Origin: Dipodascopsis uninucleata var. uninucleata
Lineage: Eukaryota; Ascomycota; Lipomycetes; Lipomycetales; Lipomycetaceae
Assembly (NCBI GenBank): GCA_030568195.1
Contig: JAJLTO010000014.1
Location: 186,001-250,000, forward strand
DNA: 64,000 nucleotides
Direction of reading: 5' to 3'
The translations under genes were made by a program, and so were the position numbers. The notes under the pieces were generated by a model, which was given only the letters and a program-made list of their open reading frames with translations, searched no databases and had not been told where the DNA came from. Positions within the stretch are counted from its first letter, which is position 1; every line of letters begins with the position of its first letter. Shown piece by piece: positions 43,030 to 49,800 of the stretch.

Positions 43030-44599
43030 TTAGAAAGTGTAGTTCTCCTCAGTGATACGTCCACGAAGAACAGGTGGCTCGGTACCCTTAATATAAACGT
43101 CTTCGAACAAGAGCTTAGGAGAGGACTCAGGAGCAGGGGAAGCCTCAGCTTCCTTGGTCTCCTTATCAACGTAAGCACGAATTTCCTTATCGATACCCTT
43201 GATAGTTTCCTCATCAGCAACACCCCATTCAATGAGGCGCTCCTTCAAACCGGTCACAGGATCGTGTGTAGACCTCATTCTTTGGATCTCTTCACGAGTT
43301 CTATAAGTAGTACCAGGATCAGACATAGAATGTCCACCATATCTGTAGGTGGTGTATTCAAGAACGAGAGGACCATTTCCAGTGGTAGTGTAGTGCTTGG
43401 CGAATGCAGAGGCTTCCTTAACAGCAAGCACGTCCATACCATCAACCTTAATACCTGGAATATATTGACCACGCTCGTGATATTCAGTCAATGCAGAAGA
43501 ACGAGCAGCGGAAGTACCCATACCGTACTTATTGTTCTCGCAAGCGAAAACGCAGGGGAGATTCCATAATTTGGCCATGTTATATGCCTCAAAGACCTGT
43601 CCTTGGTTGGCCGCTCCATCACCATACAGAGCAAAGGTGGTATGGGGGAGACCCTGATAGTGTTTAGCGAAAGCAAGACCAGCACCAACAGGAACCTGGG
43701 CACCAACAATACCATTACCACCAAAAAAGTTAGGAGCAAACATATGCATAGAGCCTCCCTTACCGAAAGAAACACCATCACGGCGTCCCATCAATTCAGC
43801 TAAAATTGCTTTGACGGAAGCACCCCTCATATAAGCAAAGCCGTGGCAACGATAGGCAGTAATAATTTGATCATCTTTGGTAATAGCATGCTCGATACCA
43901 ACAGCAATAGCTTCCTCACCGATAGAAAGATGACTGGAATAAAAATAAAACACAGTTAGTTCCACCTCTTATGACCGACAATAAAGACACAGTAAGGAAT
44001 AGACTCGTCAAAGACATACCAACTAAATAAAAAATAACGTTAGAAAGCTTTCACTAGTAGCTTTATAATTGCTTGATAGATGATGACTTACAATCCTCTA
44101 ATCTTCTTAGCCTTATACAATGCGTCGGCAGCGGTCTCAAGACGACTACAGGACACAACACGATATTAGTAAACCTACTCAAAACAGTCCAATTGTATAC
44201 TGCACATACCGGATAGTGACCATATCCTTGTACAACTGCAAGAGTTCGTTCTTAGTAACCTGAACCTCAAGAGGAGGAGTGTCAATCATATAAGTTTTGA
44301 AAGACTCTGGAGAAAGAGGGACGGTGAATTTTTCATCTGCGTCCTGTAACATACAACAATTATTAGTATCAAACCATTATTCAAGTATGAGATAAATACA
44401 CAATTAATAGGTTAATTGTGTTTTACGATAAAATAAACTATGACAGAAAAATATACAGCCGTCACTATTGAACCAGTAAAGCTATTTGTATACATACAGC
44501 TGGAATCGAAGTCACAGAGCCGGTAGCATAGGAGCGAATTGAAGCAAATCTCGATCCAGTCGAGTTTCGCAAAGATTTCAAAGTAGCAGTTCGCAACAT
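43030..44599 (-). CDS. PDA1: Pyruvate dehydrogenase E1 component, alpha subunit
   Basis: Five coding exons on the minus strand: 44599-44498, 44343-44210, 44145-44092, a 3-nt micro-exon 44022-44020, and 43933-43030, giving 398 aa. Exon 1 is a mitochondrial presequence (MLRTATLKSLRNSTGSRF..). The junctions restore TIRRLETAADALYKAKKIRG then FCHLS, invariant in the family. The thiamine diphosphate/Mg motif GDGAANQGQVFEAYNMA and the phosphorylation loop YRYGGHSMSDPGTTYR are complete. With the beta subunit it decarboxylates pyruvate and reductively acetylates E2 lipoyl groups in the matrix. The Ser in the GGHSMSDPG loop is the usual kinase target. Without the micro-exon the frame is kept but the active-site Cys is lost (RGFHLS). 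Codon bias indicates high expression. Confidence 0.96.
44020..44022 (-). other. PDA1: 3-nucleotide micro-exon of PDA1
   Basis: Coding strand TTG, preceded by a 69-nt intron (GTAAGT donor, TTCTAACG branch, TTATTTAG acceptor) and followed by an 86-nt intron (GTATGT donor, AACTAACT branch, ATTCCAG acceptor). Exon 3 ends GGA TT and exon 5 starts T CAT CTT. Inserting TTG gives GGA TTT TGT CAT CTT, that is G-F-C-H-L, matching the universally conserved RGFCHLS of E1 alpha. Each flanking intron has its own full set of splice signals. Confidence 0.88.
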
Positions 44600-46852: not shown

Positions 46853-49800
46853 CTAATATCTTCTATTATTTGCAGTAGCGCCATTGCTATAAGACTGACT
46901 AGGATACATTTGCTGGGCCATCATTCCATACTGGCTAGTTGAAATGGGTACTGCCGGATAATTCAATGGTGATCCTACGGGACTCTCAGGAATCATGCCT
47001 TCATAGCGATAGTGCTGATCTGATGGAGATGCTCGGAATTGGGAATAATCCGGAGGAGGTGACGTAGTTACTGCATATGGACTGAAGTATGGCGAAACGA
47101 CGGGAGGTGGTGACTGATTCACTCGCAGAGACTGTTGTAACATAGCCTGCTGATACAACGCAGCTTGCCCAAGCTGGGGAGAGATCTGAGCGTAATGATT
47201 GTGAGCCTGTTGCATCTGCTGAGGGGACTGTTGGTACTGCTTAGCTTGATTTTGAGATTCAACCGACAATCCAAGATGGTCCATTTGCATAGCTAGATAG
47301 TTAAGCGATGTCGGATCCTGTCTGGCTGCACTAATATAAGGACTTTCATAAGAATTTGGATCGTATCCCGGACTACCGTACATCGGAATTTGCTGCATTT
47401 GCATTTGCTGCTGCTGTATTGGGAAGTCTCTCACATGACTTGCTCTCTGATGATGGTGACTGCCATTCATGTTGTTATTTCCTTGAGAGTGATGGTGATG
47501 GTGTTGCGACTGGCTCATCTTTCCAGAAACTGATCCTACGCCTGATACACCATAAGTACCATTATTTGATCGGGCAGATAATCCAACTTCATCCATTAAT
47601 CGACGATATCCTTGTGAAGGATGAACTTTAAGCTTAACAAGAACATTGCGTACTGTAGCAATAGCTCGTTGTCTGATATCACTCTCTAAGAAAGGAGTCG
47701 TGATGATTTTAAATATAACGGCGGGTCCGTGAGTACTATCACTAAGAATCTCTTCAAGAACACTCTCATCAGGGTTTAGAACCAATGCGTCAAAAATTGC
47801 ACGTCTTGCTTCTGGCTCTGCCCGATAATTGACCACTTTTAATACTGTCAAAGAGGCCAGCTTGTGAGTACATAATGGTACTAGATGCGGTATTAATCTT
47901 GGTGCGAGTATTCTATGTCTGTTTGGAAGAGTACAGGTATCCAGGAACCACGTGAGTAAAAGAGCACCATTTGCATTCGTAGCAAGCTGAACCGTGTGAA
48001 GGGTGATTGCTGCAGCCAAAACGCGTTGTTGCTCCTTGCTTGCATAATGACTTTCGAGGCAAGCCCGCATTGCACGAGCGCCGAAACGACCTTGAGCAAT
48101 ATCCCAGAATCTAGAAAGCATTGTCTCAAATATGAAATCGTTGAAAGGAGACCCAAATCTAAGACAACACTGCAAGACGTAGTTTCCAAATTGATCCAAA
48201 AAAAGATGAACGGTATAAGGCCTCAGGCTATCAGCAATGATCTGCATTTGTTCAGGCGTATGGGCGACATCAATGACTTTTTGAGCGGCCCAAGTCCCAT
48301 TCTTGTGAATACCTAGTTGAGATAAATAAGGCGAAAGTTTGACAAGCATGCGCGTCTTGATGTCTTCAGAACAGTAATCAAATAGTTTCTGCACAACAGT
48401 ATTACCAAGATAATCACTAGCTAATTCTGCAATTTCATCCAACATGTCAATAGCTACAGCCTCAATCTCTTGCACAGTATAACTTCCATTATCTATACGC
48501 TTCCTTATTTCTCGCAATTTTGGTGCATCGTGGACCCTATTTGGATTTGGATCTGGAAGTGGGGGCATCTCTTCAACGAAACTAGTGAAAGTTAAAGCAG
48601 CAGTCAAGTTATTCCTTATACTTTCGATTTCCTCTGAATCAGCACCATATTCTTTAACGATATCAAGGATATCGTACTGAAGTTCAGCTAGAGTCTTAGT
48701 TGGAATAGATACAGCACTCTCTAGCTTAGATGTGTCCTTAACAGTGTATGAGATATCAGCATTTTCAGCTTCCGATGCTGTAGAGTTAGCTGTGTTTGGA
48801 ACACTAGAACTTTGGGAGGGAGATGGACTCATTACTTTCGCAAATCCGATGCGTAGAGACCCATTGCTCATATCGTAACCATTAAGAGCAGCTCTAGCCT
48901 GAATCGCAGATTCAATGGAAGCATAATTAACGAAAGCACAAGAGTTATTTGACAAGATCCTTGTAGATTCCACAACACCATACTGACTAAAAAGCGCAGT
49001 TAAAGATGCAATAGTAGCCGATTGAGGAATATTTCCTAACCATAAAGAACGAGTAGGGCCGATAGACTTGTCATCTAACGAAGTCACTATGTTACTCTCA
49101 TCAGCAGTCGCGATATCATCCTTCATTGGCATTCCTGTGGATGGAGATGAGCTCGAATATTCTAATTGTGAAGGGGTATGCGCAAATGACTTAATTCTTG
49201 CTTGTAATTCCGGGCCACCAAAAGTTCTAGATCGCGGCCTTACATTTGAAGGAATACGCGAAATGCCAAACGCACCCAAAGAATCCATTTCATGCTGTTC
49301 ATCGGATTCTTCCATTAAGTGTTCTAGAGCTTTGTTTCCAGGACCATCTTCATACTTTTCAGTAGCATTAACTGAGTAAGAGCGTAATCGATTGACGTCT
49401 GTTCTTAGACGATTCATATCTGCTAAGAAGGAAGAATACGATGAAGAATTTCCAGCTGATGAATTAGACATACCAGATTTTGAATTCATGCTAATAGCAT
49501 TTCCAGACTGTATCATATCATGCTGAATATCGGACGACGATTGTGGTATTTTCTGTGAATCTGAAGGTGAAACCATCTGTGGTCGTCGTTCCATGGACAT
49601 GTTGAGATCGCGGTCCTGAACTGAATCAAACGACTGACGAAAGGGTTCAGATGATTGCTTTCCTGACTCTTCAAGACCCAAATAATCAAGCGTTCCAATA
49701 GCAGGAGTAGAGTGGTCTCGAGCTTCTGTAGATGAAGCAGATGATGTCCAAGGGCTAGAAGAAAAAATAGACGATCCAAAAGGTGATGAATATACCGAAC

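Follow-up and report, generated by a model that had tools for sequence, protein, structure and literature searches.

Structure of the PDA1 gene

The window, a stretch of 64,000 nucleotides (positions 186,001 to 250,000) from contig JAJLTO010000014.1 of Dipodascopsis uninucleata (Lipomycetaceae, Saccharomycotina), carries the gene for the pyruvate dehydrogenase E1 alpha subunit, PDA1, on its minus strand from 44599 to 43030. The spliced product scored 415.1 bits against TIGR03182, which is over the curated cut-off of 393.85, and it is identical to the deposited D. uninucleata protein P0001 in 398 of 398 residues, including a cysteine at residue 98. Thus, the 3-nt exon that encodes most of this cysteine codon is already part of the public gene model. 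Two more E1_dh matches exist in the genome (16.2 Mb, 25 contigs), a 2-oxoglutarate dehydrogenase E1 and a transketolase, and no second E1 alpha was found. The exons and introns of PDA1 are as follows.

44498..44599, minus strand: exon 1, 102 nt, with the start codon at 44599 (of the product identical to P0001)
44344..44497, minus strand: intron 1, 154 nt, GTATGT ... ACTAAT ... CAG
44210..44343, minus strand: exon 2, 134 nt
44146..44209, minus strand: intron 2, 64 nt, GTATGT ... ACTAAT ... TAG
44092..44145, minus strand: exon 3, 54 nt, with the 3' end GGA TT (the Gly codon, then TT of the Phe codon)
44023..44091, minus strand: intron 3, 69 nt, GTAAGT ... TCTAAC ... TAG
44020..44022, minus strand: exon 4, the micro-exon TTG (T completes the codon of Phe97, and TG opens that of Cys98)
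43934..44019, minus strand: intron 4, 86 nt, GTATGT ... ACTAAC ... CAG
43030..43933, minus strand: exon 5, 904 nt, with the 5' end T CAT CTT (T completes the Cys codon, and CAT encodes His99) and the stop codon at its end

The TTG at 44022-44020, the 69-nt and 86-nt introns on its two sides and their splice signals had been described in a sequence-only reading of this DNA, and the description proved exact to the base. The donors, branch motifs and acceptors of all four introns match the fungal consensus as quoted in PMC7138796, the comparison set being PDA1 introns 1 and 2 together with that consensus; the branch motifs of introns 1 to 4 start 24, 25, 22 and 27 nt before the intron end. In its size and in the complete splice signals of the introns on both sides, TTG fits the usual picture of a micro-exon, an internal coding exon of no more than about 30 nt. 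When TTG is included, the coding sequence is 1197 nt long (398 amino acids and the stop codon) and has RGFCHLS at residues 95-101, whereas when TTG is omitted the frame is kept and the motif becomes RGFHLS. Both products had been predicted by the earlier reading and were reproduced by splicing. Retention of intron 3 leads to an immediate stop, and retention of intron 4 alone leads to a stop 21 residues further on. An intron-retention role for these two introns was considered and set aside, because premature stops are commonplace for introns and are thus uninformative.

Chance occurrence of a 3-nt exon

Within the 158 nt between exons 3 and 5, the arrangement AG-NNN-GT is found at the TTG site only. 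This is also the single place where an AG has a GTRWGY donor at most 12 nt downstream. We kept the outer splice sites fixed and shuffled the interior of the 158 nt 60,000 times with dinucleotides preserved. A 3-nt exon with strict signals (a GTATGT or GTAAGT donor, CTAAC and YAG) appeared in 0 of the 60,000 shuffles; one with loose signals appeared in 99, and loose signals together with a Cys codon in four. A chance origin of the TTG exon is unlikely.

The strict arrangement of an intron, 3-15 nt and a second intron occurs once on both strands of the window, at the TTG site, and was found in none of ten single-strand shuffles. The loose arrangement (3-15 nt) is not above chance, with 14 places on both strands of the window compared with 4 to 12 per single-strand shuffle; for exactly 3 nt, the counts were two on both strands and 0 or 1 per single-strand shuffle. 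The other loose 3-nt place is a CTT at 47861 on the plus strand, and its frequency is as expected by chance.

Searches of the whole genome showed no enrichment of the motif. CTAACN{4,25}YAGNNNGTATGT had four matches, the TTG site among them, compared with six for the reversed control, and CTAAYN{4,25}YAGNNNGTAAGT had seven compared with 16, which is no excess. From the genome density of the motif, 2 to 3 x 10^-5 occurrences are expected per 158 nt on one strand. Given that the strict motif shows no excess across the genome, nothing suggests that 3-nt exons are common in the D. uninucleata genome. The case for the exon rests on its position and its codon rather than on the motif by itself.

The restored residue

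In an ungapped alignment with human E1 alpha (1ni4), F97, C98 and H99 of PDA1 align with human F61, C62 and H63. The residues named for the alpha-subunit catalytic site in PMC6168537 are Phe61, His63, Tyr89, Met200 and His263 (human numbering). All five are present at the aligned positions of PDA1; Cys62 is absent from this list. The restored cysteine therefore lies between the equivalents of Phe61 and His63, and the earlier statement that it adjoins the active-site His agrees with this placement.

We collected 285 distinct homologous proteins in three overlapping searches, which contributed the best 120 of 8000 matches, 108 of 108, and the best 120 of 741. The queries of the second and third searches were deliberately made without the Cys so that they would draw Cys-less models. 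Among the matches listed, 274 of the 275 inspected homologs outside the Lipomycetaceae have the Cys, as does human E1 alpha; this bears out the conservation that the earlier reading had stated for this residue. In older work, Cys62 of bovine E1 alpha was reportedly labelled as an essential cysteine.

The sole Cys-less protein among the 275 is P0122 of Magnusiomyces paraingens (Dipodascaceae), which reads RGFHLSIGQEA. This species may have a similar micro-exon, either shared or of independent origin, or P0122 may be another gene-model error.

Gene models of the Lipomycetaceae

The ten Lipomycetaceae models (assigned to the family by taxonomy lookup for some species and by genus for others) differ from one another at this residue. 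Five have the Cys, namely those of D. uninucleata, D. tothii, Lipomyces japonicus, L. tetrasporus and Kockiozyma suomiensis. In three others, from L. arxii, Myxozyma melibiosi and Limtongia smithiae, the residue is missing and the motif reads RGFHLS. The remaining two have a different residue at the Cys site: Phe in L. kononenkoae (P0002, RGFFHLS) and Ser in L. oligophaga (P0009, RGFSHLS). Plain skipping of a 3-nt exon does not explain the Phe and the Ser. Fisher's test for the Cys inside versus outside the family gave 1e-7, a value that serves as a guide only, as the rows are related by kinship and the searches were biased.

Control columns were provided by 117 positions that are nearly invariant among 235 proteins from outside the family, each 380 amino acids or longer. 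The ten family models deviated at C98 in five of ten, at Q104 (as Q104E) in ten of ten, and once each at positions 255 and 265, so that C98 and Q104E are the only repeated deviations among the 117 columns. L. tetrasporus was judged only before residue 305 in this control, since the end of its model differs. That deposited model (P0121, 333 amino acids) has an unrelated tail after GTTYR, which is probably a gene-model error of its own. The Glu at residue 104 of PDA1, in exon 5, stands in place of a nearly invariant Gln (GEEA instead of GQEA) and appears to be a family marker within the same segment as C98.

Close relatives can differ at the Cys site. The Kockiozyma protein, which has the Cys, is 91% identical to that of Myxozyma, which lacks the residue; L. 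tetrasporus (Cys) and L. kononenkoae (Phe) are 94% identical over 316 amino acids. These results suggest a gene-model anomaly of the family, new to this analysis, that is concentrated at one residue, C98. Such a pattern is what would be expected if gene predictors had either missed a micro-exon or forced a way around it, although it is not proof. The protein models indicate that the micro-exon is probably present in the relatives as well, and the likeliest explanation would be that it is family-wide in the Lipomycetaceae, that intron definition leads to its inclusion by default, and that it is often mis-modelled. The earlier assertion that ordinary gene predictors cannot find a 3-nt exon is not supported: the deposited D. 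uninucleata model does contain the Cys, although in five of the ten family models this very place is aberrant.

Several yeasts of the Lipomycetaceae are known as oil accumulators. If our reading is correct, the deposited E1 alpha models are wrong at an active-site residue in five of the ten Lipomycetaceae examined, which is relevant to metabolic and enzyme work. The family-wide anomaly also makes conservation of the micro-exon directly testable.

A proposed model for default inclusion

We propose, with high confidence, that the E1 alpha gene has TTG as a true internal exon, which would normally be included in the mRNA by means of intron definition. This proposal is based on the anatomy of the locus, the protein motif, the shuffle controls, the Cys of P0001, the near-invariance of this Cys outside the family, and the anomaly concentrated within the family.

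The first part of our model addresses how so small an exon could be joined to its neighbours. Ascomycete introns are described as being spliced by intron definition, in which the nearest splice sites are paired (PMC7138796; PMC6616335). Introns 3 and 4 each have their own donor, branch site and acceptor, and the splice sites would be paired across each short intron. Recognition of the exon would then be unnecessary, and the two introns could leave sequentially. If splicing is co-transcriptional, intron 3 is perhaps removed first. Because the nearest sites would pair and both introns are complete, we expect removal of two short introns rather than of one 158-nt intron, and this favours inclusion as the default.

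The second part of our model involves the protein. Inclusion would supply the counterpart of human Cys62, flanked by the catalytic-site residues Phe61 and His63. With TTG skipped, the segment would be one residue shorter and the subunit probably impaired or inactive. If the model is true, a core enzyme owes one of its active-site residues to an exon far too small for exon definition, and PDA1 offers a clean natural case, in a yeast, for testing models of intron definition and sequential splicing.

Alternative explanations

One alternative takes the aberrant Lipomycetaceae models at face value: those species would have lost their Cys or exchanged it for another residue, and the micro-exon would be peculiar to D. 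uninucleata. The Phe in one model and the Ser in another, where a mere gap might have been expected, are consistent with this explanation. However, a near-invariant residue would have had to change several times separately, always exactly at the 3-nt exon, while the other near-invariant columns hold, and we consider this explanation unlikely.

The sequence-only reading had itself proposed a regulated one-residue switch, in which TTG is sometimes skipped and a Cys-less E1 alpha controls the entry of carbon into the TCA cycle. The reading frame does survive skipping, exactly the skipped form appears in three models from the Lipomycetaceae and one from Magnusiomyces, and the Xlr2 gene of Trichoderma offers a precedent for a carbon-dependent fungal micro-exon (PMC11121469). 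Yet the switch would cost a residue that nearly all outside homologs inspected (274 of 275) retain and that is flanked by two residues of the catalytic site. The splice signals are complete in both introns, an anatomy that favours default inclusion, and the models with the skipped form have close relatives with the Cys, as expected of gene-model errors. We therefore find the switch unsupported and rate it as very unlikely. An extension of the same idea holds that a regulated share of the transcripts is skipped across the Lipomycetaceae, and perhaps separately in Magnusiomyces, so that the Cys-less models would represent a real isoform that tunes pyruvate dehydrogenase activity; we give this equally little credence.

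It could also be supposed that TTG is a coincidence, that the 158 nt form one intron, and that the true product lacks the Cys. A length of 158 nt would be similar to that of intron 1 (154 nt), and RGFHLS is found in three family models. The shuffle controls, the Cys in the deposited D. uninucleata protein and the near-invariance of that residue all argue against this supposition, which is highly improbable. Least credible is a stwintron, in which one intron would sit inside a splice element of a second and no exon would lie between them. Stwintrons are documented in Lipomyces, of the same family (PMC7138796). In introns 3 and 4, however, every donor, branch and acceptor motif is unbroken, and excision of the whole 158 nt would give RGFHLS, contrary to the deposited protein.

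Comparison with known ultra-small exons

Ultra-small exons are a known kind of feature, and the 3-nt exon of PDA1 adds a new case. Within the matches listed from literature on fungal and Lipomyces micro-exons and on 3-nt exons of E1 alpha, we found no report of it. Fungal micro-exons together with pyruvate dehydrogenase matched a single paper, on lipid production in Mortierella alpina, and fungal 3-nt micro-exons matched none; among the eight listed of 119 papers for Lipomyces or micro-exons Lipomyces did not occur, and the eight listed of 670 for E1 alpha or 3-nt exons contained no exon term.

A close fungal likeness is the 1-nt exon of Fusarium CYP621A, which was overlooked by automatic annotation (PMC12940212). 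As in PDA1, the coding exon falls within a conserved motif that cannot form without it, and it has a complete intron on each side. In CYP621A, however, omission of the single nucleotide breaks the frame, and RNA reads are described as confirming the exon; in PDA1 omission of the 3 nt keeps the frame, and the exon is known from the DNA and the protein model. The 1-nt exon of plant APC11 is constitutive, and sequential removal of its flanking introns by intron definition has been proposed, as we propose for PDA1 (PMC4674806; PMC8831610). It belongs to a different gene and kingdom and has been tested experimentally (PMC4674806; PMC8831610). The APC11 exon is often mis-annotated, and misannotation of ultra-small exons is said to be pervasive in plants (PMC8831610).

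The micro-exon of Drosophila homothorax has the same size as that of PDA1, 3 bp, but is one alternative version of an exon of 48 bp (PMC7392893), whereas no larger overlapping exon is seen in PDA1. The micro-exon of Xlr2 in Trichoderma virens is likewise fungal and belongs to a gene with a link to carbon metabolism, and it is not in the JGI model of that species (PMC11121469). It is regulated by glucose and alters a DNA-binding domain (PMC11121469), whereas for the PDA1 exon default inclusion is the likelier reading.

The stwintrons of Lipomyces, from the same family as D. uninucleata, are spliced consecutively by intron definition, and in them a splice element of one intron is split by the other (PMC7138796), whereas in PDA1 an exon separates two complete introns. 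Last, in rtnA of Aspergillus niger a 15-nt exon is skipped (PMC6616335).
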